Assembly: GCA_033065855.1 (NCBI GenBank)
Contig: JAVXUO010001132.1
Location: 330,109-394,108, forward strand
Direction: 5' to 3'
DNA length: 64,000 nucleotides
Origin: Escallonia rubra
Lineage: Eukaryota > Streptophyta > Magnoliopsida > Escalloniales > Escalloniaceae
Shown piece after piece: positions 395-48,242 of the stretch. A program made the translations under genes and the position numbers. The notes below the pieces were generated by a model, which did no database searches, was not told the origin of the DNA, and saw only the letters and a list, made by a program, of their open reading frames with translations. The number at the start of each line of letters is the position of its first letter. Position 1 is the first letter of the stretch.

Positions 395-421
395 CTCCCT
401 CCGTCCCTTTTTAAGTGATCA
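395..421 (+). repeat. mariner left terminal inverted repeat
   Basis: 27 bp, exact complement of 10165-10191, preceded by the TA target duplication at 393-394. The next ~60 bp (T-rich, with a GGGTGTCCCATAAAA stretch) also looks like typical plant mariner subterminal DNA. Confidence 0.95.
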
Positions 422-1410
422 GATTTCCTTTTTTGGGTGTCCCATAAAAAATGATAATTTCTATTTTGAGATATAAATTTTCTTAATCTTCCAACTTTGC
501 CCTTTCATTCATTTATGTAAAATCAATTCACAACCTTTATTTATCATTTAACAAAGCCAAATAAATAAGTATGAAAATCAGATACTCCAAACTTTTTCAG
601 TCTTTCTACCTCGTCACCGGCGACAGCAACGTCATCTGCAATTTTGCACCGCCAACCGGAGTATCAAGGAAATGCCGTCAACCATGAAGGACTATAAAGA
701 GCACCCACCACCGTAGTCTTTCTTCTTCGTCATCGCCAATGGCAAGAGCATCCCCCACTATAATCTTTCTTCTTCATCATCGCCAACGGCAAAGCACCCA
801 CCACCGTCTTTCTTCTTCGTCATCACTAATGGCAAGATTACCTTTCACTTTGTAGCATCTACCACAAACCTGCAAATTAACCCAGTTGTACCATTCCAAT
901 TTTGGTGGAAGTAGAACCTGTGGTGCCGACTAAAAAATTCAGAACCCACAATTGCAGAACTGCTACTTCGAACATTGTTGCGTGGCTATTAGTTTTTTCC
1001 CCTTCATGATCTTTTCCAGGTGAGGTTCTCCTCTCTATTCTTCTTATCACCATGTCCAGCTGTCCTTCTCTTTGATTTATCTTTAGGCTTTCTTTTAGGG
1101 ATTCTTACGTTGGTTTCTGCAATTGGTGTTTACATACATTTAAGGGAGTGGATTTCTTTTTTCAATGATTTCCTTTTTAATTGAAGGGAAAAGTGAAGAT
1201 TATGCTGCATATATGTAAGCTGGTATGTCAATGATATTGCACATAATTGAAGGGAGTATTAGACCTATGATTTTTGAGTGTATTCACACTGAGATACGAT
1301 TGAAAATGTGGTTTGTACAGTATGCTTAAACTGTCATCTTTGTTTTCATAGTTATAAATAACATGGCTTAACTTAATGCTGTAAAAGATAAAAACTTTGG
1401 TTTTTGACAG
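422..1410. other. mariner left interior, upstream of the cargo gene
   Basis: No coding sequence recognised. Roughly 690-840 holds about three imperfect direct repeats of some 50 bp built on CACCCACCACCGT...CTTTCTTCTTCGTCATCGCCAATGGCAAG (split here for brevity). Beyond it is AT-rich DNA ending in a T-rich tract and CAG before the first coding exon, consistent with a 5' leader and intron of the BED-DUF659 gene. Confidence 0.4.
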
Positions 1411-1431
1411 GCTTTGACAGGCCGTGTTGAA

Positions 1432-4400
1432 ATGTCTTACAGCCGGCCTGATTCAAGTGATCCCGCTTGGAAGTATTCATTTTGGCCAAAGACAAACGAT
1501 AAGAAATGTCTTGAATGTAAATTATGTGGCCATCGATATAATGGTGGGATAAGGAGAATGAAGGTACATCTTACTGGGATTGGAACTGATGCAAGAAAGT
1601 GTGGATTAGCCACTAATGATATACAATATGAAATTATAGAGTACATGAAAAAGAAAAAAAGGAAAGGACTTGAGAAGGATGATGATTCATTGTCAAGTGG
1701 GGCTTCCTCCAAAAAATTGCCACGCGTAGGGATTTCAGTAGATGCAAATGTTGTTTTTTTCTCCTGCCAAGGTGCAGTGTCAAACTAATGTTGATGATCA
1801 TAACCTCGAAAAGATTGAGGAAAGAAATATAGCTATCCAACACTTTGCAAAATGGATGTACCAAGCAGGGATATCTTTTAATGCAGTTAAATTGAGGAGC
1901 TTTGCCCAAGCACTAGAAGTTGTTGGATGTTATGGGGTGGGTTTGAGCCCTCCGACCTATCACGAGGTGAGGGATCTATGCCTTATAAAAGAAGTTGAAA
2001 ACACGAAGGATTTGTTCTTATTACAACAAACCTCATGGAGGAAGTATGGTTGTACTATTATGTTGGACGACTTGGGTAACGTTAATGGCAAGAGAATAAT
2101 AATCTTTTTAGCTAATTGCCCTGGTGGAACTTTTTTCTTGAAGTCTATTGATGCGTCTTGTAAGATTCATGATCATGATTTTATTTATTCGGAGTTGGAT
2201 AAAGTGGTGGAAGAAGTAGGAGAAGAACATGTGGTTCAAGTTGTTTCCCAGAATGGAGAGGCTTATATGAAAGCTGGCAAATTGCTGATGGAAAATAGAA
2301 AATGCTTGATCTATGCACCGTGTGTTAGCCATAGCATCAACCTTATCTTAACAGACTTTTCAGAAACGCCAGTGACAAAATCCGTTATTATGGATGCAAG
2401 AGAAGTCACTTCATTTATTTATAGCCATAAACTTATCCTTGTTTTCATTAGGAAAGAAACGGGGGGTAAAGAATTGGTAAGGGCTGGTTTGACTCAATCT
2501 GTATCTGCATTCTTAACTCTTCAAAGGCTTTACACACATAAGCAAAGCCTTAAGGCATGGTTTGTCTCAGAAAAATGGACCCAGAATCCATTGTCAAGAA
2601 AATCTTTTGGACAAAGAGTTTCAAATTTGATCTTAAGTTCTAACTTCTGGAGAGGCATTTGTCATGGTCTCAGGGTTGGGCAACCATTGCTTCAAGTGTT
2701 GAGGTTAGTTCATGGCGACGAAAAGCCTCCAATGGGCTACGTCTATGCTGCCATTAGATATGCAACGGAGGAGATTCGCTCTTTTTTTGGTGATAAGCAC
2801 AACTATTGTGAAAATGTCTTGAAGGTAGTCTCTAAGAGATGGGCTGAACAGTGTAATCAACCTCTTCATGGTGCTGGCTACTTCCTTAACCCAGGCTATT
2901 ACTATGATAGGAAAGAAGTTGAGTGCGATTATGAAGTTGCATTCCTTGCTTGTGTCGAAATTATGACGAGGAGTCCAAATGAGGAAGATGAGATTCTTAC
3001 ACAGGTAGATTCTGACAAGAATGCTAAAGATTTGTTTGGGAAAGGTTCAGCAATAAGATTGAGATCAAAGAAGCAGCCAAGTAATCATCTAACTTGATTT
3101 TTTGTCATATTCTGAATTTCACGTTACTATGAAATGTCTTACCCTATCTATATTGCACTTTGTCCTTAATAGCTGAATGGTGGGACACCTTTGGCAATGG
3201 AACTCCAGAATTGAAACGCATGGCATTGCGTATTTTGGGCCTTTGTTGCAGTTCATCAGCCGGTGATAGAAAATGGGTCGATTTTGAACTTGTAAGCTCA
3301 AAGCCTTTCAAATTTTTATGTTTTAATCTTATTGAAATTGTAGGCATGCAATTTCATTTATCCTTCTACCACATTCATCCTCATGGAAATAAGCACAAAA
3401 TATTCTCATAAAAGGTTCTTCAAAGGTTCTTCAATCGTTAAGTTGCCTGGTAAAATTTGTTAATTTGCGACAACTTTCTATCCTATCTCTATGCTTTCAA
3501 ATTGAAGATTAATTTTTGCCTTAGCATTGTTATTTCTATACTCGAGTACTATAGACTCCTTTTTGCATCTTATTTGTGTTCCCTGTGAGTAGGGGTTGCC
3601 CAAATCGCCTATTAAGTGCTCCTGTATACTGTATAATGTCTTATGCTGCTTAACTACGCATATTGGTATTTAAGTTTACCAAGGAATGTCCCTGATGAGT
3701 AGGATATATTGCAAAACTATGCATGATTTTCCTGTACACTGCCTGATGCGCGCTGCTGCCTGCATATTGCAAATTATTTGCTCGATACATAATGGAGTAC
3801 TTGTTTCTTTTTGTTTTTTCAACTGAAAACTTGTTTCATGTTCTTCGGCTTGTTGCTCAAATCTGCATATTTCATCCTTCGACTCTGTAACCTTCATATG
3901 ACATTAGATTCTACATGCACGCTAACCGGAAGAACCTTGTTATATGCATGAAGTATTACAGTCACAACTTATCTTAACTGCACATGTGCTAATATATGGC
4001 TTATGATTATGCCTAACCCAGTGTTATGAAAAGCGCGCCTAGGCGCAAGGTGCAGATAGGCTCACACAACGCGCCTCGCATAGGCTAGGCTCAGCGCGTT
4101 CAAGAAGGCGAGCGCCTCTTGCGCCTAGGCGCCCAAGAGCGCCTAGTGAAGCGGCGGTGGAGGCACAAGGATGAGCGCTTCTTGACTGTTGCCATTCGAT
4201 TTTCTTCACATGGGGATGGGCCGTTGATTTTCCTTTTCCTTTTTGTCTTTACCAAGTCAAAACCCCCAAATCAGTTCCTGATTCACGAGTCACGACCCAA
4301 GACGGCAAGACCCAAGCTCTCAATCTCTCACAGTCACCTCGCGAGTCCCGACCTTCCATCGCCGTCGTATCTCTTATCTCCGCTCGCCGTCGCATCTCCC

Positions 4401-5866
4401 ATATCCTCCGGTGCCGCAGGCGATGGAGCTTACGCGGCGAGAGGCTGCGGCGGTGCCGGCGGCGGAGCTTACGCGGCCGCCGATCTCCTCAGCGACCAAG
4501 TAGTACTTGTCGGTGCCGAGATCCTCGATGTCGATGCGGAGGGAGCGGAGGTGGGCGACGGTGGCGTCCTTGACGGCCGTGCGGAAGCTGTCTGCTCTGG
4601 CTATGAGCTTGAGGTGGCGGTCGGTCGTGGCGTCTTGAGCCATAAGCCGGCGGTGGTGTGGTGTGGACTGTGGACTGTAAGGTCGGTACTTGGTTGTTTG
4701 AGGTTTGGAAGTTGGTCTACAAAAGACTCTTGGTCTTTCGTGACGTTTGCTTTGTCCGAATACTGCACTGTTATCATGCACAAAACCAAATATTAACGGT
4801 CATATTTAACGGGAGTTAACCGGAATACCATTAATTTTGTTTCCGAAATTTGTAACTGTAATTTTTTTGTTTATCGTTTTTGAAAACAATATAAACAAAA
4901 GTTGTAGCAGTCTTGCAAAAAACTTAGCCTCAAAGTATTGGTTATGAGTGACATAACATATTTTCTAAACAAAAGCCCTACTCAAAAAGAGGTAAATAAA
5001 AGGGGAAGTGATATTTGAATTTCTCTTTTATCGCTAAAAATCTTAAAAATCACATGTACAACTTTTAGAGACAAAAAAGAGCATAAATATTATCATCTTC
5101 CCCTTTCCAAATAAGTACTCCACTTCCCAAATATCAACAATTCTGACCCATCATGATTTATTTTACTTAATTTTATTGTTTTAATGCACTATTATTTATT
5201 TATTTTAATATTGCGCCTTGCTTCGAAAAGGCGCGCGCCTGCGCCTTGCGCCTAGGCTCCAGGGACCTTTTGCGCCTTAGGTGCGCCTGCGCCTTTAATA
5301 ACACTGGCCTAACCTAATTTACTTGCCACATTCAGATTCACTCAAAGAATATTAACCGACTTGAGCAAAAGAGGTTGAATGATCTTGTGTTTGTCCAGTA
5401 TAACCAACGTCTCCATGAAAGGTTTCTAATAAGACAGTCAAGCCCGGGGGCTTATGACGCTATATCATATGATGAGGTCAATGAATCGAGTGAATGGCTG
5501 ACTGGATTAGTGCCTGCTGAAGATAAGTTTCATTTTCTTAGAAACCTTCGATGGTCCGAAGTTAACTCACAATTTGAGGAGTCAGGGTCCTTGGCAACTT
5601 GTTTAAGGAACAAGACCGGAGACAGATATGCAATCTTTGATGACGATAAAACTCAACCCCCGGATCCGGAATCATGTAAGGAAGCAGAAGCAGAATTTGC
5701 TGAACTAAATCAGGACAGTGACATTAATGAGGAAGACTTCTCTTATGGAGAAAGTGGTGTTGAGTTAGTGTTTGCCACAGCTGGTGATGGGCTTGCTGGT
5801 GCGCAATTGTTGGACGAGGATTTGAACTTTATCCCACTTGATGACCTTGTTTACGATTGTTTCTAA
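1432..5866 (+). CDS. BED zinc finger / DUF659 / hAT-dimerisation protein
   Basis: hAT-transposase-derived gene of the plant BED-DUF659 type, probably nuclear DNA-binding. Exons by eye: 1432 to about 3080, 3173-3291 and 5336-5866, with GT-AG junctions. The first exon has a BED finger (CKLC about residue 30, then a His-containing helix) and a Lys-rich stretch. DUF659 follows (motifs HFAKWMYQAGISFNAV, FLKSIDAS). The second exon has the dimerisation core (EWWDTFGNGTPELKRMALRI). The last exon has the acidic C-terminal tail after INRLEQKRLNDLV. A T-run near 1752-1758 puts BED and DUF659 in different frames; one T fewer would join them. The usual catalytic TDN reads SQN and the usual DGW reads DDL, so transposase activity is unlikely. 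It is either a decaying copy or an exapted-type gene carried by the mariner. Confidence 0.8.
4019..5306. mobile_element. non-autonomous hAT element
   Basis: Flanked by identical 8-bp duplications GCCTAACC (4011-4018 and 5307-5314), the hAT hallmark. Ends begin CAGTGTTATGAAAAGCGC and, in complement, CAGTGTTATTAAAGGCGC. Subterminal DNA is packed with repeats of the GCGCCTAGGCGC/TGCGCCTTGCGC kind. No transposase. The GC-rich core (about 4150-4800) contains a possible captured gene piece (next entry). Confidence 0.93.
4374..4643 (-). CDS. reading frame inside hAT, possible captured gene fragment
   Basis: Starts MAQDATTDRHLKLIARADSF and stays open for 89 codons. The first ~57 residues look like normal soluble protein (charged helix-like, then LRSLRIDIEDLGTDKYYL). 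The remainder is Ala/Gly/Ser-rich and may be intron or low-complexity DNA. The GC content contrasts with the AT-rich surroundings. I do not recognise the family. It may be a host 5' exon carried off by the hAT, or chance. Confidence 0.35.
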   Translation of the reverse strand: MAQDATTDRHLKLIARADSFRTAVKDATVAHLRSLRIDIEDLGTDKYYLVAEEIGGRVSSAAGTAAASRRVSSIACGTGGYGRCDGERR

Positions 5867-7783
5867 ACTGAGATCCAATTGAGTACTTTAACAAGTTGTC
5901 ATTTGCGTATACAAATATGTTCTACTGTATTTCGTTTTGGAACAATTACTTTTGCTAGTAATGACAACTACTTTCCTCTTTTTCCCCTTAATCTTGTCGG
6001 ATAATGTTGACAACATATACTTTGTCCTTAACAATACTGGAGAAATTTGATGATGGCAATTGGTGTTTGTAACTTCCCTCACCAAATTGTAGTTCTTAAA
6101 GTTTAAAAACATTTACTTTTGCTCATTTTTGTTGGTAAGTAGAGTTCCTATACAGTGGCTTGGACATACTCTTTCAAGTGTTCATTTACTCCATAAATAA
6201 CAACCTGGAGTGTTCATTTCCCTCACCAACCTTGAGTATATCATAAAGAAAAAAAGGAAGCATCTCTTAAAATTTAGAAATGTTCATTTTTGCTCACTTT
6301 TGCTGGTAAATAGAGTATCTCATGTACATCGGCTTGGACAACTTTTTCAAGTGTTCATTTAGTCCATAAATAACAACCACCTGGAGTGTTCATTTCCCTC
6401 ACCAACCAGGAGTATATTGCAGAGCAAAAAAAGAAGCATTCCAGAAATAACAACGGTTTATATTGCAAAAAAATATGTAGTCACTTGCAATAGAACATGT
6501 TCACAATTTCTAGTTGGTATGCATTTGCACATATTACATGAGAAAAAGAAGGCATTTCGTTAAAATGGTGAACAAAACACAGGTTGAGAGCTGAAATTTT
6601 CTAAATCTCGGCAAGCAACCCGCTACACATCTGCCTTGTGACAACAAAAGGAGACTTTGGCATTTGCTAAATCTTGACAGCATCTAAGCAGTCATCCATA
6701 AGGTGTTTGATCAGACAACCTACATAATTAAATTAGACATGTAAGCATATGAACTTTGTGAGTACTAAATGAAGTTTCAATTATTTTGAAACCTTTAGGA
6801 TACTAACGTAGTGCCCTTGTGCGCTATACAACCAATATGTGAATCAAAACTTAAAGTCAATGTCTACATATCTAAACTTGCAACCTAGTTTGTGTGGTCT
6901 TTTTTGAAACTAGAACATAAAGAAGAGGTTGATCGAAGATAACATAAAGATGAAAAATTACCTTGTTCTTAATCTTGATCTTCTTTAGCAAAAGAGAAGC
7001 ACAAAAGTAAGGAAAGGCTCAAGCTTAGGTCCTGTCACATTGTCACATAACATTCCATGAGCAAAGAGGGGCAAAAGGAGAAGGGGGAGAACAAAGATTT
7101 TTGGGAACACCGGTAACAAGCTTGGGTTTCCGCAGCTTAATAAGCATTGAATTCAGAGTTATTAATGCCATCAAACTAATTCAAGTTTCAAACCAGAACA
7201 CATCATCAGTGTTATATGCCATGAAAACAATCTGAAAATTGTTCAAGGCATGAAAATGGATACATATAATTGTCCCACATATATACCTGAAAAATAGACT
7301 CAACATATATACTTGTCCCAGCATATCAAATCCTACTCCACATACTCAATTACCTTCTATTACTTTCTTTCCATATTTTGTCTCATGAGGAAGCCTAAAG
7401 GAAGTTTGTGAGTACTAAATGAAGTTTCATTTATTTTGAAACCTTTAAGATACTAACGTAATGCCCTTGTGCGCTATACAACCAAGATCCAACAAATACA
7501 CAACTATCAAAGGTTGCACAATAAAGATAAAATTTAGTCGAATACTTTTGTAGTTGTTTATAGATACCACTCCAGCAGTTTCTAAAAGACAGGAGTGAAA
7601 AAAAGCAAGAGCCCTATCAAAATATATAAGTTAGAGAAATTGAGAAATGAAACTAAGACCACAAACATACATACATAGAACTGGTAAAAAAAATTAGAGT
7701 TCAAAAGCATACCTTGCAAAAGTATCTACCTACACCACTATATCCAAAAAGAAGGGAACAAAAGTAGAGGGTAGCAGCTGATC
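5867..7783. other. mariner interior between cargo gene and transposase
   Basis: No gene recognised. It holds two direct duplications: a tandem one of about 170 bp (roughly 6092-6280 against 6262-6441, with CAAGTGTTCATTTA and GGAGTGTTCATTTCCCTC), and a separated ~83-bp pair (about 6755-6838 and 7404-7487, with TGTGAGTACTAAATGAAG). The region just left of 7784 would be the transposase 3' flank. Confidence 0.55.
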
Positions 7784-9067
7784 TTAGGTCTCTATCAAAT
7801 GATTCAGGTGATGAATCGCTTGATTAAGAAGATCCGGTTCACATGAAATCTGGAAAGGCAGGACTCCTCGTCTCTCCAAACTATCCTTACCAATATGTGG
7901 TATCTTATAACGATTGCTTCCACAAACTTTCATTGTCTCCAACATGCATAGTTGTAATGTTAAGAAAACATGACTGAGGCTATGGGGTAGCAACTTATCA
8001 AACGATTTATGTACAGCATCAATTAACTCATCAACAGTATTAGGAGCCTCTTGATATTGAAGTGATTGAATTGCTCGAAAGAAACCAAGATCTAACACGT
8101 TGAAGTCCGGGCTGTTTGGAGGTTGATAAGTAAGTTGTCTATCAAATCCATCCTTAGATGCTGCTTCCAGAAAATCGGAGTCATGAGGTTCGATATGTGG
8201 CTTAGCATTGTCTTGCTGAATAAAAATTGTACGTGAACTAGAACTAGGCCATTTACAGCGAATTGCAGGCAAGACTTTCTCAATTAAAAACGAGCGGTAT
8301 GTATCTTTATTGACTGATAGAATTGGTTTAGTTTCCATTGTTCCCGCCTCACGATTCTTACTACCACGCTTAGCAAGCTCCTTAAAGATAAAAGGAAAGA
8401 TGCCAATTTTTTCAAAGACTTCTTCGTTATGTGATGCATCAAATCGAGGGCGAGCTACTGCAGCTAGAAACATGATTTTCGTGATAAATTTTTTGCTTTT
8501 GCATGAACGTTCAGGCCCAATTTCATGAGGGAGAAGGTAATACTTTTCTGCAACTTTAGACATGTAAAACCATTTTTCATCTACATGTACAAAATCAAGC
8601 ATATCCCGAAAAGCTGGACTACTATCAAGGCTAGCTGCGTCAAGCATATTGATAGAGAACTCTAACCTTGATTTCTTATTTTCCTCGGTCAAATACGGTT
8701 TAATGGCATTTGAATGCCGCCGAATCTGTCCAGCCTTTACCAACCTATGTAAACAGGACTTTGGCACGCTTAAAGCTTCTGCCAAGGACCTGATATTTGT
8801 TCGTTTACGCAGTGTAACATCTGAGACATGACTTATATCGATTTCAATTTGTTTACGTCCTACTCTTCCCTTCTTCTTAGATGAAACATCAGTTGCAAAC
8901 CCAATAGAAGAACTTGATTTTCCTTGCCGCCATATTCTTCAGATAGTGCAGCTTGACACGGAGAAAACTGTTGCAATAGCACGAACTACTGCATTGTTCA
9001 GCTTTCCATTTTGACTTTGCTCCAATAAGGTTTCAAAAATGGCTTGTCGTTGGTCATTGGTCAAGTT
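7784..9067 (-). pseudogene. plant mariner (DD39D) transposase, one stop
   Basis: Cut-and-paste transposase of the plant mariner-like family. The N-terminal helix-turn-helix part begins NLTNDQRQAIFETLLEQ (from 9067), continues past the basic KKKGRVGRKQ linker and joins LAEALSVPKSCLHRLVKAG. Catalytic Asp residues are visible in VHVDEKWFY, IFIQQDNAKPH and SPDFNVLDLGFF, with 39 residues between the second and third, the family signature. One in-frame TGA (complement of 8939-8941, a likely CGA-to-TGA change) interrupts the HTH region. No other break is seen down to HLNHLIET. The true start lies upstream, probably behind an intron, and is unresolved. An internal TTG downstream of the stop opens 333 codons but lacks the DNA-binding domain. 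It lies 1.1 kb from the right end of its element. Confidence 0.9.
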
Positions 9068-10164
9068 TTTCCCTCATATGGTCATTGGCTCAATATACTG
9101 GAAAAGAAGCAAGGTGGAAATACAGAGCCCTTTCATGGCTAAAATGCTCTTAATACTCGGGAGAACAAAGGAAGTTTGAAAAAAAAAACTATTGTTTCTA
9201 AAATCTACCGCCAATAACAAAGAGGGAAACAAACAATTGAAAAGAATGAAAGATAAGCATAAATGCTTAGTTGGTGAACAGGGTGAACAGGTGACGCCTA
9301 GTCGGTGATTGGCGACGCCTAGTCGGTGCAGAAGGGACGATTTTGCATAAGCATAAGGCAGCATAAGGCGTAAAGCATAAGGCGATCAAATTGGCAAAAT
9401 CTATTAGCCTTAAAAAGGGTGTTTGACACCATGCGCCTTATGTCTCACCCATCGCCATTCAACGACTTACGCCTTAGGATCGAAAAGGCATAAGCAGCCT
9501 TAACCAGAGAAGCCCGAACTGGAACGGTGAACGAACAAATTAAAAAGCTCAAACTAGTAGAGGATCGAAAAGGATAAATGAATAAAAAATGAGAAGAAAC
9601 ATAAAGTTCAAACTAACCTGGAGAAGCTTGTTGATCTGTTTCGGAGCCCAAGCTTTTGTTCTCTCTGTTCTCATAAGTTCCATCTTGCCCTAATTTGCAA
9701 ACTGAACTTGTTTGGGCAATTAGTTTGACAAAATTTCAGGAACTTCAAGGAATTTTTTTTTCAATTTACGAAACATACGAGGAGATGGCAGATTTGGAGA
9801 AAGAGGATGGGGACGGTGAGAATTGATTTAGCGTAAAATGGCGGTGGGTGCGTGATTTACCTCTCCTAATGAGACTGCTATGTCCAGCTGTGGAGTGAAA
9901 GTTTGCTATTTCTCCGGTCTTTGTTTGAGAAGAGGATAGCCATGGATGGAGAAGGAAAAGAAAAAGAAAACAGTGGCGAGAGAAAGGAGAGGACAGGAGA
10001 TATGACTAAGTCAAGAAGCCAGTGAGGAAAATAATAGGAAAAGGAAAAGATAAAATAAAATAAAAATAGTGGATATAATGGTAAAGGGATTATTTGTAAC
10101 TGAGGGTAACTTTGGAAAGAAGAGTTTATTGGACTTTTTCCTTCAAATTTGTGCAAGTCAAACG
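9068..10164. other. mariner right subterminal region
   Basis: No gene recognised. Presumed promoter and leader of the minus-strand transposase. At 9285-9510 is a cluster of GCATAAGGCG/ACGCCTAGTCGGTG repeats in both orientations, perhaps a relic of a small repeat-ended element. At 9940-10080 is purine-rich DNA. Confidence 0.45.
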
Positions 10165-10191
10165 TGATCACTTAAAAAGGGACGGAGGGAG
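10165..10191 (-). repeat. mariner right terminal inverted repeat
   Basis: Exact complement of 395-421, ending GGGACGGAGGGAG and followed by TA at 10192-10193. Confidence 0.95.
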
Positions 10192-10193
10192 TA

Positions 10194-12256
10194 CAATTTT
10201 AGACGCTATTAAGCCTCCCAAATGTTGTTTCATCTGCACCTTTATTGCGTAGATCTATTTAATTTTTGGTCTAGCATTATGCAATTACGTTAATTGGCAC
10301 AAGCACATTACCTGTCGGGTCTTTCAAGTGCTTTTTTTGAGCTAACTCGCGTCACGCAGTGCAACACGCTCCCGTTGTCTAACCGACAAAAGCCCTAATG
10401 AAGCCACGGAGTATGAACATTGCTCCTATTTTTATGTTAAAAACATAGTTGCACTTGTATGTTCATATGCTTCATTACTCTTAAAGATATATGTTCAATC
10501 ACGTGTTTTTCTTGTTGAAGGGCTTAAACCATGCATCAACACTAATGTATAAACCGCGTCATAAGCGAGGAACAAATTCATAGCACCCTGCAACTTGAAC
10601 TCATACCTACAATTTCTGTTACAGCATTCTACCAACTTGGCCTTACATATCTGGTGGTACTTTGGTCATACAGTGGTCTCTATCAGTTGTGAAGTATTCA
10701 CACAACACATTGAGCGCTAAGTCTATAGAGACGGAGGCATGCGCGCTGCCAGTAACTAGTGAATCATAACACCAGCCTCTGCTGATAGGATCACTAGTAT
10801 GTCTGGTACAACTACAAGCTCAAGCTCATGCAACCAACAAATCGAATTTAGTTCCTATACAGTATATCGACAAATGGCAGCAACATCTTTTATTTCCAAC
10901 TGACATCTTGCTCAAACAGGCTCCTCGTACTTTAGCTCCATATGCTCGTCCAATCGAGCGGACAGATTATGGTCCTTTACATTTATATTGCTCACACAAG
11001 TCTTCTTGTGACCATGCCTTACATATAGGCTGAGAAGCCATCTTTATTTTCTTATTTTCTCAGACAGGGGGACTTTATATCTTATGACATCATCAATATT
11101 ACGGGCTTAATGCCTTGTGCCCTCTCAGACATGGGGGCTTCATAACAGCGGCCATATTACGGGCTCAATGCCCCGCACCTTCTTATTTAGCATCACGACA
11201 ACAAGTACTCATTACTTCGACCGCAACCCCCAAGGGCATTTATGTGAGTTTTATGCTCCATTAGCCCTCAAGGGCGCATACGAGAACTCTAAGTTCCATC
11301 AAACCCTCAAGGGTACTTACATGAGCTTTGCGCTCCATAAGCCCTCAAGGGCGCGTACGACAACTCCAAGTTCCATCAAACCCCCAAGGGTATTTACATG
11401 AGCTTTGTGCTCCATTAGCCCTTAAAGGCACATGCGAGAACTTTAACTTCCATCAAACCCCCAAGGGCATTTACATGAGCTTCGTGCTCCCTCAGCCCTC
11501 AAAGGCCCTTACTAGAATTATATATTTCACTAGCCTCCAAGAGCGGTACCTCAAAAGATGAACAGCCCCAAAGGTGACAGGATAGAACCCAAGTTCTCTC
11601 CCCAACAGTTTAGCTACAGTTCTAACCCTTGAAACGGCAAAGCACTATGTGGGACTTCATCACCCCACCACTCTTTGTCAATTCAAATCCCAGCCAAGCG
11701 TGAGTGCAAGGGTTATTTGCCAGCTCTTAGCTGACAATGAGAGTTAGCATCAAAATAAAATGCAAGCATGTACTGGTCAGCCCAAGCTATAGAACACACA
11801 CTTGCACAAAACAAACACCCTCCAACGGATAGGTGAAAACTACAATGTCAAGTGAAACCGCTCAAGGGGTCATTTAAACAGTTAGGCAAATATGTATAAG
11901 CACATGCAACAACTTGCATGCACGGCTTTGTGTCCTCTCCCCAGAGAGGCTACCATGGGCACACCCTCTAAAGGATCTCAAGATTCCATGATTCGTCTTC
12001 TCAAAAACGATTCTGAATAGCCTGCTTGGGCAAAATTCTAAGACGTAGCTCTCAAGAGCTATAAGTTTTAACACGCTACTTGCACAAAGTTCCATGGATT
12101 AAGCTCCCAAGAGTTAAGGTCTGAGCACATGCAGTAGAAAAATATTATTTATCCCTACAAGCGGATGAAAGATCCCTTATGAATCTGATGCGTGTCTCAA
12201 GACACCTTGTATAACTTCTTCAGCCAAACATTTTGACTAAGAAAGTGAGGGGCTTA
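10194..12256 (+). repeat. non-coding LTR-element interior, copy A
   Basis: Near-copy of 22788-24772 and 46258-48242. No retroviral-type protein is encoded. At 11230-11560 are repeated 60-80 bp blocks built on CCCTCAAGGGC and TCCATCAAACCC with CGAGAACT and CATGAGCTTTG. The stretch ends in a purine-rich tract (AAGAAAGTGAGGGG) just before the LTR, as expected of a polypurine tract. Treated as a fossil of a large non-autonomous LTR element. Confidence 0.7.
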
Positions 12257-21221: not shown

Positions 21222-22691
21222 GATTGATGACATCCATGTGACCTGTCAGTCTAGCCGATTGACCTTAACAAAACTCAACAGTCATATCACAAGCTATCGG
21301 CAGCAGCGCTTCGGAACCACTGAGAGAACAATTCAATTGCCGTAAAAATTTTAATCAATCGTAACTATGGGACGTCAACAAGGAATTGGCAAGTGGGATG
21401 GCTTTGCATGCAGTAACCTAACAATTTACTGCCGCCACAGGTCAACAATCCGATCACACAAAAACTTAGTGGAAGAAGGCACCACAGCGCCTCTCCACTC
21501 CCATGGGCAAAACCCTAAACAGCAGTGGCCCAACCGCCATCAACGGCACTTACATGGGCAGCCTCACTCCCGCACAACCATCAAGCCACTGGAGACACAA
21601 ACCGCCGCTGCAAAGCTGCTGGAGCAGCGATAATAACCCAAAAAAATAAAGAAAAGAAAAGAAAAAAAGAGGAAGAAGTAACAACGCCGCTAGAACGCCA
21701 GTCCCAATCGGCTCAACCGTTGCTAGCACAAGAAGGCGCCATCACAACTGCTGCTGCTCAAAGTTCGCAACAGATTACGAATGCCATCGCCGCTCTCCTG
21801 TCCTGATCTGCACCACCAAGGACATCCCTATCCAAATCTACACCACTGCGACGACAAAAAAACACCGCGAACATTGCAACCATGGCCTCCACGATCAGCT
21901 GCACAGCCATGGCGTGATGCCATATCAACAAAACAAAAAAAAGAACATCTTAGACAGGAGCAGAACCACCATTGCCAAGAATAATTGGTAAGAACACTGT
22001 TGTCGTCCTCCACCATCAGTAGCCACCTTGCCAAATCCACGCAACGCCACCAGTCCTGACAAAGCTTGTCGTCACGGCCCGTAGCAATGCTACCGCCACA
22101 ATCCCGATCAGGCACATGCAATCGATGGCAGGCCACTACCATCTGTTCGAATCTGCTCCACGGCGGCCGGCGGCAGCCGTATAGTCATCAAAAGCCCCGA
22201 CATCCTGATGATTGGCGCCGCCTTTGGTCTAGATTTTAACCGCAATAGCTTTTCTATGGCCACAACCTCACCTTCCATTAGCCAGAGTCGCATCGAGTGG
22301 CGGCACCGACGCTCCCTCATCTTCATTCGGGTTGAGAGGAATGCGCAGAATGGAAACAAGGTGCATTCCTTCTTTTTAGAAAATTCTAAAATGCCCCCTT
22401 AAAATTGCATATTCATATTTTAGACCTAAAAGATCTTCTTTATGCAACATATGCCATATTTTTTAAAAATCATTAGACTTTGCACCTATGAAAAATGCAT
22501 ATTTATACTTAAGACCCAAAAGGTATCCCTTATTCGACATAGGTCATACGCTTTTTAAAGCATTAGAATTTTCACCCCATGCAAATGCATATTTGTATAT
22601 TAGACCCGCAGGTCTTATTTATTTGACATATGCCACAAACACTTTAAAGCATTAAGCTTTCAACCCCAAAAAAATGCCAATTTAAGTTCAA
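21222..22691 (+). other. left interior of LARD-like element, copy B
   Basis: No recognised gene. About 21430-22350 is GC-richer with short open frames on both strands; none shows protein-family features. A fragment (21434-21590) recurs at 46055-46200. At 22390-22760 about four diverged repeats of some 100 bp carry ATTTAGACCCGCAGG and CATATGCCATA. Confidence 0.45.
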
Positions 22692-24772
22692 GACCCGCAG
22701 GGTCTCATTTATTTAGCATATGCCATACATACTTTAAAATTTGCGTAAATTTCATCGCACATTTTTCACTAAAAAATTAAGCGACTGCAATTTTAAACGC
22801 TATCAAGCCTCCCAAATGTTGTTTCTTCTGCACCTTTATTGCATATACGATCTGTTTAATTTTTTGTCTAGCATTATGCAGTTACGTTAATTGGCGCAAG
22901 CACGTTACATGTCGGGTCTTTCAAGTGCTACGACTTTTTTCAGCTAACTCGCGTCACGCAGTGCAACATGCTCCCGTCGTCTAACCGACAAAAGCCCTAA
23001 TGAAGCCATGGAGTATGAACATTGCTTCTATTTTTATGTTAAAAATATAGTTGCACTTGTATGTTCATATGCTTCATTACTTTAAAAGATATATGTTCAA
23101 TCACGTATTTTTCTTGTTGAAGGGCTTAAACTGCGCCCATAAGCATCAACACTGATGTATAAACCGCGTCATAAGCGAGGAACAAATTCATAGCACCCTG
23201 CAACTTGAAGTAATACCTACGGTTTCTGTTACAGCATCCTACCAACTTGACCTTACAAATCTGATGGTACTTTGGTCATACAGTGGTCTCTATCAGTTGT
23301 GAAGTATTCACACAACATATTGAGCGCTAAGTCTATAGCGACGGAGGCATGCGCGCTGCCAATAACTAGTGAATCGGAACACCAACCTCTGCTGATAGAC
23401 TTGTTAATATGTCTAGTACAACTACATGCTCAAGCTCACTCCTCGTACTCTAACTCCATATGCTTGTCCAGTTGAGCAGACAGATTATGGTCCTTTACAT
23501 TTATATTGCTCACATAAGTCTTCTTGTGACCATGCCTTACATATAGGCCGAGAAGCCATCTTTATATTCATGTTTTCTCGGACATGGGGGCTTTATATCT
23601 TATGACATCATCAATATTACGGGCTTAATGCCATGTGCCCTCTCAGACAAGGGGGCTTCATAACAGCAGCCATATTACGGGCTCAATGCCCCGCACCTTC
23701 TCATTTAGCATCACGACAACAAGTACTCATTACTTCGACCGCAACCCCCAAGGGCATTTATGTGAGTTTTACGCTCCATTAGCCCTCAAGGGCGCGTACA
23801 AGAATTCTAAGTTCCATCAAACCCTCAAGGGTACTTACATGAGCTTTGTGTTCCATTAGCCCTCAAGGGCACGTACGAGAAATCTAAGTTTCATCAAACC
23901 CCCAAGGGTATTTACACGATCTTTGTGCTCCATTAGCCCTTAAGGGCGCTTGCGAGAACTCTAAGTTCCATCAAACCCCCAAGGGCATTTACATGAGCTT
24001 CGTGCTCCCTCAGCCCTCAAAGGCACTTACTAGAACTATACATTCCACTAGCCTCCAAGAGCGGTCCCTCAAACAATGAACACCTCCAAGGGTGACAGGA
24101 TAGAGCTCAAGTTCTGTCCAACAGTTTAGCTACAGCTCTAACCCGTGGAACGACAAAGCACTATGTGGGACTTCATCACCCCACCACTCGTCGTCAATTC
24201 AAATCCCAGCCAAGCGTGAGTGCAAGGCTTCTTTGTCAGCTCTTAGCTAACAATGAGAGTTAGCATCAAAATAAAATACAAGCATGTTGTGGTCAGCCCA
24301 AGCTAAAGAACACACACTTACACAAATCAAACACCCTCCAACGAATAGGTGAAAACTACGCTGTCAAGTGAAACCCCTCAAAGGGTCATTCAAACAATTA
24401 GGCAAATATGTATAAGCACATGTAACAACTTGCATGCACAGCTTTGTGTCCTCTCCCCAGAGAGGCTACCATGGGCACACCCTCTAAAGGATCTCAAGAT
24501 CCCATGATTCGTCTTCTCAAAAACGATTCTAAATAGCATGCTTGGGCAAAATTCTAAGACGTAGCTCTCAACAGTTATAAGTTCTACCACCCTACTTGCA
24601 CAAAGTTCCATGGATTAAGCTCCCAAGAGTTAAGGTCCGAGCTCATGCAGTAGAAAATTATTATTTATCCCTACAAACGGATGAAAGATCCCTTATGAAT
24701 TTGATGCGTGTCTCAAGATACCTAGTATAACTTCATCAGCCAAACATTTTGGCTAAGAAAGTGGGGGGCTTA

Positions 24773-46050: not shown

Positions 46051-46269
46051 CCACAGGTCAACAATCCGATCACACAAAAACTTAGTGGAAGAAGGCACCA
46101 CAGCGCCTCTCCACTCCCATGGGCAAAACCCTAAACAGCAGTGGCCCAACCGCCATCAACAGCACTTACATGGGCAGCCCCACTCCCGCACAACCAGCAG
46201 TGGCCCAACCGTTTAAAATTGTAGTCGCACATTTTTCACTAAAAAATTAAGCGACTACAATTTTAAACG
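46051..46269. repeat. patchwork junction between Copia and copy C
   Basis: 46055-46200 matches LARD interior 21434-21590. Then a 17-bp stretch CAGCAGTGGCCCAACCG (46136-46152) is repeated at 46195-46211, running into a 19-bp inverted pair (CGTTTAAAATTGTAGTCGC at 46210-46228 against 46251-46269). In copy B the same positions are separated by about 1.2 kb of extra DNA. The structure suggests a deletion repaired with templated filler. Confidence 0.85.
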
Positions 46270-48242
46270 CTATCAAGCCTTCCAAATGTTGTTTCTTCTG
46301 CACCTTTATTGCATATACGATCTGTTTAATTTTTTGTCTAGCATTATGCAGTTACGTTAATTGGGGCAAGCACGTTACATGTCGGGTCTTTCAAGTGCTA
46401 CGACTTTTTTGAGCTAACTCGCGTCATGCAGTGCAACATGCTCCCGTCGTCTAACCGACAAAAGCCCTAATGAAGCCATGGAGTATGAACATTGCTTCTA
46501 TTTTTATGTTAAAAATATAGTTGCACTTGTATGTTCATATGCTTCATTACTTTAAAAGATATATGTTCAATCACGTATTTTTCTTGTTGAAGGGCTTAAA
46601 CTGCGCCCATAAGCATCAACACTGATGTATAAACCGCGTCATAAGCGAGGAACAAATTCATAGCACCCTGCAACTTGAAGTCATACCTACGGTTTCTGTT
46701 ACAGCATCCTACCAACTTGACCTTACAAATCTGATGGTACTTTGGTCATACAGTGATCTCTATCAGTTGTGAAGTATTCACACAACATATTGAGCGCTAA
46801 GTCTATAGCGACGGAGGCATGCGCGCTGCCAATAACTAGTGAATCAGAACACCAACCTCTGCTGATAGACTTGATAATATGTCTGGTACAACTACAAGCT
46901 CAAGCTCACTCCTCGTACTCTAACTCCATATGCTTGTCCAGTTGAGCGGACAGATTATGGTCCTTTACATTTATATTGCTCACACAAGTCTTCTTGTGAC
47001 CATGCCTTACATATAGGCCGAGAAGCCATCTTTATATTCATGTTTTCTCGGACAGGGGGGCTTTATATCTTATGACATCATCAATATTACGGGCTTAATG
47101 CCATGTGCCCTCTCAGACAAGGGGGCTTCATAACAGCAGCCATATTACGGGCTCAATGCCCCGCACCTTCTCATTTAGCATCATGACAACAAGTACTCAT
47201 TACTTCGACCGCAACCCCCAAGGGCATTTATGTGAGTTTTACGCTCCATTAGCCCTCACGGGCGCGTACAAAAATTCTAAGTTCCATCAAACCCTCAAGG
47301 GTACTTACATGAGCTTTGTGTTCCATTAGCCCTCAAGGGCACGTACGAGAACTCTAAGTTTCATCAAACCCCCAAGGGTATTTACACGATCTTTGTGCTC
47401 CATTAGCCCTTAAGGGCGCTTGCGAGAACTCTAAGTTCCATCAAACCCCCAAGGGCATTTACATGAGCTTCGTGCTTACTCAGCCCTCAAAGGCACTTAC
47501 TAGAACTATACATTCCACTAGCCTCCAAGAGCGGTCCCTCAAACAATGAACACCTCCAAGGGTGACAGGATAGAGCTCAAGTTCTGTCCAACAGTATAGC
47601 TACAGCTCTAACCCGTGAAACGACAAAGCACTATGTGGGACTTCATCACCCCACCACTCGTCGTCAATTCAAATCCCAGCCAAGCGTGAGTGCAAGGCTT
47701 CTTTGTCAGCTCTTAGCTAACAATAAGAGTTAGCATCAAAATAAAATGCAAGCATGTTGTGGTCAGCCCAAGCTAAAGAACACACACTTACACAAAACAA
47801 ACACCCTCCAACGAATAGGTGAAAACTACAATGTCAAATGAAACCCCTCAAGGGGTCATTCAAACAGTTAGGCAAATATGTATAAGCACATGTAACAACT
47901 TGCATGCACAGCTTTGTGTCCTCTCCCCAGAGAGGCTACCATGGGCACACCCTCTAAAGGATCTCAAGATCCCATGATTCGTCTTCTCAAAAACGATTCT
48001 AAATAGCATGCTTGGGCAAAATTCTAAGACGTAGCTCTCAACAGCTATAAGTTCTACCACCCTACTTGCACAAAGTTCCATGGATTAAGCTCCCAAGAGT
48101 TAAGGTCCGAGCTCATGCAGTAGAAAAATATTATTTATCCCTACAAGCGGATGAAAGATCCCTTATGAATTTGATGTGTGTCTCAAGATACCTGGTATAA
48201 CTTCATCAGCCAAACATTTTGGCTAAGAAAGTAGGGGGCTTA

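Follow-up and report, generated by a model that had tools for sequence, protein, structure and literature searches.

The window analysed here is a 64,000-nucleotide stretch of the Escallonia rubra genome (positions 330109-394108 of contig JAVXUO010001132.1, hereafter C1448). Its positions 395-10191 are a single mariner insertion of 9,797 bp, bounded by inverted ends that match at 27/27 bp (395-421 against 10165-10191) and abutted by a TA on either side. Between the ends lie a mariner transposase gene and a second, hAT-type gene, which we call the cargo. The features are as follows (L009-L013 are further copies and A-D are subfamilies, described below):

395-421, plus strand: left terminal inverted repeat, 27 bp, reading CTCCCTCCGTCCC...; TA at 393-394 just before it
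395-1431, no strand: left subterminal non-coding region, 95.5% identity among A copies and 79% to subfamily B (measured over 395-1400)
1432-3080, plus strand: cargo exon 1 (BED-like finger and DUF659, the hAT RNase H-like domain), frameshifted in the window copy, open in L009, L010 and L012
3081-3172, plus strand: first cargo intron (GT-AG), whose donor coincides in place and phase with a GT of the DUF659 homologues read; their acceptors were not seen
3173-3291, plus strand: cargo exon 2, start of the hAT dimerisation domain (TEWWDTFG...)
3292-5335, plus strand: second cargo intron (GT-AG), larger here than in L009, L010 and L012, where it measures about 0.7-0.9 kb
4019-5306, no strand: nested non-autonomous hAT-like element, 1,288 bp, with CAGTGTTAT inverted ends and the 8-bp target duplication GCCTAACC
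5336-5866, plus strand: cargo exon 3, remainder of the hAT dimerisation domain and acidic tail
7784-9085, minus strand: DD39D plant-mariner transposase region, running convergently to the cargo, with two in-frame stops close to its N-terminus; open in L009
9100-10191, no strand: right subterminal region, non-coding
10165-10191, minus strand: right terminal inverted repeat, 27 bp, perfect; TA at 10192-10193 just after it
22786-22787, plus strand: paralogous target without the element, reads TG (CTGCA at 22786)
46256-46257, plus strand: paralogous target without the element, reads TA (CTACA at 46256)

Two stretches of the window, 22691-23438 and 46215-46908, each align at 91% identity with the joined flanks of the element, across the point of insertion. 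An earlier sequence-only reading had taken the whole block for one mariner insertion, and the perfect 27-bp ends, the TA on both sides and the element-free paralogous targets bear this out. Two of its details needed correction: both targets that it called unoccupied align across the site, but the one at 22786-22787 reads TG and has no TA; and the ends do enclose 9,797 bp, as its 9.8-kb mariner-like element requires, but 1,288 bp of this length are a later nested element. The three paralogous stretches of the window extend over 10192-11500, 22691-24018 and 46215-47488, and a short tandem repeat near 11225-11544 has counterparts in the other two.

The nested element at 4019-5306 is a later hAT-like insertion into cargo intron 2 of the window copy, which accounts for the enlarged intron. 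Its empty site is seen in L009 and L010, where GCCTAACC occurs once, and it is absent inside the element in all other copies read. In L011, a 142-bp match (79%) to the nested element lies outside that copy's mariner element.

The transposase, which had been read as a DD39D enzyme lying between the ends, indeed has 39 residues between D2 and D3 on the minus strand, on our placement of the D motifs. Pfam DDE_3 and Tc3 HTH matches to it were weak and below cutoff, and a search of solved structures returned one chance-like match at 0.039. Both genes are broken in the window copy: the transposase by its stops, the cargo by a frameshift due to an extra T in a T-run near 1754-1760. In L009, the transposase frame and the cargo frame are both open.

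The cargo had been described as a spliced BED-DUF659-hATC gene. The DUF659 and hATC assignments and the GT-AG introns stood, but the BED finger fell below cutoff and splicing is predicted. In the window frame, Pfam recognised DUF659 at E 3e-46 and zf-BED at 0.0011, just below the Pfam cutoff; in the spliced protein of L010, DUF659 (2.7e-46) and the hAT dimerisation domain (8e-8) were both above it and zf-BED (0.0078) below. Both introns have their GT donor and AG acceptor in the seven A copies and in C. The spliced frame runs to 780 aa in L009 and L010 and ends at 596 aa in L012; in the open exon 1 of L009, a short stretch differs from L010 in the way that two mutually compensating shifts would produce. 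Searching solved structures with a 4-row profile gave no match and with the single spliced cargo protein just the hATC part of Hermes (E 0.11-0.16). A single-sequence AlphaFold model had a mean pLDDT of 33 and was not used.

Where did the cargo come from? The intron 1 donor has a counterpart in homologues L030-L033, whose DUF659 frame runs up to a GT in the same position and phase; L034 has a GT there as well. This agreement in intron position, a comparison that the sequence-only reading had suggested, indicates that the cargo gene was probably taken up as DNA with its intron. No donor gene was recognisable when we looked for one, since outside-family matches are just 28-43% identical over the matched stretches (best 94 of 419 candidates scored); on the same grounds we rejected a recent capture from a gene still present in the genome. 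A hAT-type border pair was not found around the cargo of L010 (in the 649 bp preceding the gene and the 1.9 kb following it), where four inverted 12-mers (one mismatch allowed) compare with 2-7 in five shuffles and none has an 8-bp duplication within two mismatches.

Could the cargo protein still cut DNA? Going by hAT work, the D of the TDN motif in DUF659 is presumably catalytic. TDN is read in homologues L030-L032, which are close relatives of one another; at this position six of seven A copies and subfamily B read SQN, L014 reads SHN, and the DNA of subfamily C is TCCCAGAAT, the same bases as in the SQN copies. The first D is kept in the cargo protein, which has LDD where the homologues have SDG. 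Homologue L034 reads TET at the TDN position, the D being lost there as well. DUF659 is reported as a hAT transposase domain with a conserved active site (excerpt of PMC3985635). Because the TDN motif is lost, the cargo protein is probably not a working hAT transposase.

We searched this single genome (566 Mb, 3,222 contigs) for related DNA. The left end matched at least 53 pieces (best 40 of 341 candidates scored), the right end at least 46 (best 40 of 58 candidates scored), the transposase 22 (19/19 candidates scored) and part of cargo exon 1 ten (10/10 candidates scored); the viral contigs searched gave no match. Twenty stretches from these searches were mapped onto the window element. Five are collinear with it, at 90-95% identity in long segments and 81-83% in some short ones: L009 (C679, 8,716 bp), L010 (C2708, 8,527 bp), L011 (C1698, 8,555 bp), L012 (C727, 8,522 bp) and L013 (C1226, about 10,000 bp, with additional DNA in its right part). 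Together with the window copy, all six have both ends, a TA on each side and differing flanks, and all six carry the BED-DUF659-hATC cargo at the identical place; the two genes have moved as one unit. The sequence-only reading had held that cargo-less members, together with the borders of a separate element, would make the cargo a secondary insertion. What we found instead was the gene in all six near-complete copies with both ends and no hAT border pair in L010.

All ten loci that match cargo exon 1 DNA belong to the mariner family, two of them being one insertion on two contigs. Subfamily B (L017, L018) is one insertion on two contigs, 98% identical including flanks, and is compact: cargo exon 1 adjoins the transposase directly and exons 2 and 3 are missing. 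Subfamily C (C1441; L020, L021) has the three cargo exons and the transposase, plus more inserted DNA. Subfamily D (L027, L028, with a common right flank) has the transposase and cargo exon 3 at about 67-89% DNA identity; cargo exon 1 was not found in the two stretches read.

Viewed from the transposase, DNA matches fell on 17 contigs, of which 16 were read for cargo and C291 was left out. Cargo exon 1 is present on nine of the 17 (C1448, C679, C1698, C2708, C1226, C727, C2607, C2606 and C1441), exon 3 only on two (C1937, C443), and no cargo was found in the stretches read of five (C1654, C47, C1806, C2273 and C904). On C1654, C47 and C1806 the element is cut off at window position 7331, C1654 and C1806 being one place on two contigs (99.5% identical), and C2273 is a 1.7-kb derivative. 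C904 was considered as a candidate sister family without the cargo, which would give polarity; in the 5 kb around its transposase piece (L035), cargo matches reached E 0.20 at best, and convincing paired ends were not found. The exon-1-less copies read are deletion or truncation derivatives, except the remote relative on C904, which could not be judged; L016 and L019 are also deletion derivatives or fragments. Conversely, transposase DNA is present on nine of the ten cargo contigs, intact in few, and the tenth (C1240, L014) has the left end and cargo with no transposase match.

The contig pairs C2606/C2607, C1654/C1806 and C3123/C2261 agree at 98-99.5%, flanks included: some places are present twice in the assembly, so that counting contigs gives too many insertions. 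A candidate second subfamily with a different interior (L015 and L024, both ending at window position 1140) was rejected as a single place on two contigs: the two agree at 99.2% across 9.2 kb, the place is interrupted by other DNA, and neither cargo nor transposase was matched in it. Genome-wide, the 29-base end plus TA is found in exact form at 51 places, against 0 in a reversed control; 15 of these belong to copies read, and the other 36 may be short Stowaway-type derivatives. L010, a full copy, and L025, a 1.7-kb derivative, occupy the same TA of a repeated target in opposite orientation, with one flank matching at 84% across 304 bp; this suggests that the spot was hit twice, independently.

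Between subfamilies, the cargo exons are better preserved than the DNA around them: the A copies average 91.8, 91.6 and 92.2% identity to C in exons 1, 2 and 3, compared with 80.8 and 59.7% in introns 1 and 2 and 81.8% in the right non-coding region. The dS ranges of cargo (0.10-0.32) and transposase (0.16-0.29) are similar in the comparisons to B, C and D. For cargo exon 1, dS was 0.110 and omega 0.43 against B, and 0.141 and 0.44 against C; exon 3 against D gave dS 0.25-0.32 and omega 0.34-0.35. In these four comparisons the 95% omega intervals all lie below 0.7, and coding constraint is thus evident between subfamilies. The transposase gave dS 0.162 and omega 0.39 against B, 0.165 and 0.44 against C (C-terminal part), and 0.24-0.29 and 0.60-0.63 against D (parts), where one interval reaches 1.06. 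The similar dS and omega of the two genes point to a shared history, with the cargo constrained about as much as the transposase. Between A and C, no constraint was seen in exon 3 (dS 0.100, omega 0.64, interval 0.30-1.62; 13 non-synonymous and 6 synonymous fixed changes) or in exon 2 (4 non-synonymous, 2 synonymous). The association of the two genes is old; taking some 7e-9 substitutions per site per year, dS of 0.1-0.32 would correspond, only as a guide, to roughly 7-23 million years.

The changes in exon 1 differ with their place in the family. At the 24 two-state sites that split all A copies from B and C, 15 changes are synonymous and 9 non-synonymous, versus 38 and 99, plus 7 stops, at sites private to single copies (Fisher p 0.0017). 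For the split, omega comes to 0.24 with a computed neutral ratio of 2.53 and 0.26-0.29 with assumed ratios of 2.3 and 2.1 (binomial p against neutrality 0.0005-0.002); a whole-codon count gave 12 synonymous and 6 non-synonymous changes, omega 0.20, and an omega of about 0.9 for private changes. Sites common to several A copies only (A1, A2, within) hold 3 synonymous and 9 non-synonymous changes (p 1.0 against A singletons), and pooling them with the split gave 18:18 versus 38:99 (p 0.016). This test leaves out 20 sites with more than two states, homoplastic sites (6 synonymous, 9 non-synonymous) and the B stem (12 synonymous, 22 non-synonymous, 4 stops). It was used in place of a Fitch parsimony count, which over all internal branches gave no contrast (33:67 versus 85:171, p 1.0), a result that we tentatively attribute to the rooting, which would have put C terminal-branch changes on an internal branch. 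Among the three intact exon 1 copies (L009, L010, L012), mutual omega was 0.70-1.84. In the transposase, the A-B split counts 32:40 and the A singletons 16:34, a difference with p 0.19; tested against neutrality, the split has a binomial p of 0.005. The counts provide modest evidence that cargo exon 1 was under purifying selection on the subfamily split, with none apparent among single-copy changes.

What does a hAT-derived protein do in a mariner element? The element is probably a two-gene plant mariner in which a degenerate hAT protein was recruited as an accessory factor. An ancestral mariner would have acquired an intron-containing hAT-type gene (BED-DUF659-hATC), most simply once and before the subfamilies split. 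The cargo lies by the left end, read toward the transposase, and the transposase by the right end in the opposite direction; the mariner transposase would cut the Stowaway-type ends and so mobilise the entire unit, inserting it at TA. Probably without cutting DNA any more, the hAT-derived protein would probably still bind DNA and dimerise, and may have been kept because it aids the spread of the element, for example by binding the ends or promoter, by assembling or importing the transposase, or by counteracting silencing. An accessory role, argued from selection rather than from activity, is the best-supported reading, and the loss of catalysis and the DNA binding that go with it are predicted from the protein's motifs and domains. 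More tentatively, and at somewhat less than even chances, the catalytically dead hAT transposase may be a required partner of the mariner, in a stable two-superfamily transposon that leaves the cutting to the mariner transposase and DNA binding or defence against silencing to the borrowed protein.

The gene might instead be a passenger, captured once and amplified with the element to no benefit of the latter, as in Pack-TYPE elements. Pack-Mariner elements with gene fragments exist in rice (excerpt of PMC8903248), and the private changes of single copies (omega about 0.9) and the changes shared within A (3 synonymous, 9 non-synonymous) both look neutral. This absence of constraint within A somewhat lowers the accessory reading and raises the passenger one. 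Between subfamilies, however, exons are more alike than introns, omega stays below 1 for the split as well as against D, and a full-length spliceable 780-aa frame persists in two copies; we therefore consider a pure passenger unlikely.

A hAT element that landed in the mariner after the family had formed, and whose borders were lost, would explain the hAT origin of the cargo, and hAT-like elements do land here, as the one at 4019-5306 did. We hold this to be improbable, because the cargo sits in the same place in the six two-ended copies and in B and C, with exon 3 in D, and the inverted 12-mers of L010 are within the shuffle range and lack an 8-bp duplication. The sequence-only reading had left the choice between one capture event and a later insertion whose borders had disappeared; a late insertion is ruled out by the shared position in 6/6 two-ended copies and the lack of hAT borders in L010, and the cargo emerges as an old, family-wide gene with signs of selection. 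An old hAT insertion in the common ancestor, its borders since decayed, is a possible route of capture. Finally, the hAT-derived protein could be a working transposase for a second set of ends, making the unit a fusion of two active transposons. Its DUF659 and hAT dimerisation domains are kept, but TDN is changed in A, B and the DNA of C, and the six two-ended copies have mariner ends and TA, so that such a fusion seems very improbable. The recruited accessory factor remains the reading that we prefer.

Its ends, target duplication and catalytic spacing make the element a plant mariner, of which its size and gene content make it a new variant. It resembles the PlantMar or DD39D elements (Osmar, Soymar1, Ppmar) in its CTCCCTCCGTCCC Stowaway-type ends, TA duplication and 39 residues between D2 and D3; plant mariners have CTCCCTC ends and TA (excerpt of PMC4423477). 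PlantMar elements are described as 2-6 kb long with a typical Tc1/mariner structure (excerpt of PMC7325037) and mariners as usually encoding a single transposase (excerpt of PMC4423477), whereas L009-L012 measure 8.5-8.7 kb and L013 about 10.0 kb, with a second gene. Like Pack-Mariner elements, the family has gene-derived DNA within mariner ends. The rice Pack-Mariner cluster carries a 260-280 bp gene piece, in a class described as non-autonomous (excerpt of PMC8903248); here a whole spliceable gene lies beside a transposase, and transposase DNA is found on nine of the ten cargo contigs, unlike in a Pack-TYPE element that has no transposase of its own. The ciliate TBE and Tec elements, which belong to the Tc1/mariner superfamily, likewise have additional genes; TBE encodes a zinc finger protein, and its ORFs are under purifying selection (excerpt of PMC7325037). 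They differ in being ciliate and DD34E, with other extra genes that are not hAT-derived. MuDR (mudrA/mudrB), whose gene layout is convergent, and PIF/Harbinger likewise pair a transposase with a second protein, but belong to other superfamilies with other ends and duplications, and their second proteins are not known to be hAT transposases. Harbinger and CACTA have a second ORF whose function is given as yet unknown (excerpt of PMC4423477). The cargo shares with DUF659 hAT transposases the BED-DUF659-hATC order and, with L030-L033, the place of the intron 1 donor, but it lies inside a mariner and is 28-43% identical to outside matches (best 94 of 419 candidates scored). Whereas an autonomous hAT element would have an 8-bp duplication at its ends and an intact TDN in DUF659, here TA is at the ends, no such duplication was found round the L010 cargo, and the motif reads SQN. 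We recognised no description of a plant mariner with a hAT-derived gene in the open-access literature, most subscription papers and Repbase lying outside this search.

If the cargo is co-inherited and selected, mariners too can gain accessory genes, as MuDR, Harbinger and CACTA did. Such a mariner family would be a natural test of what accessory proteins do, and L009, with both frames open, makes the accessory question testable.
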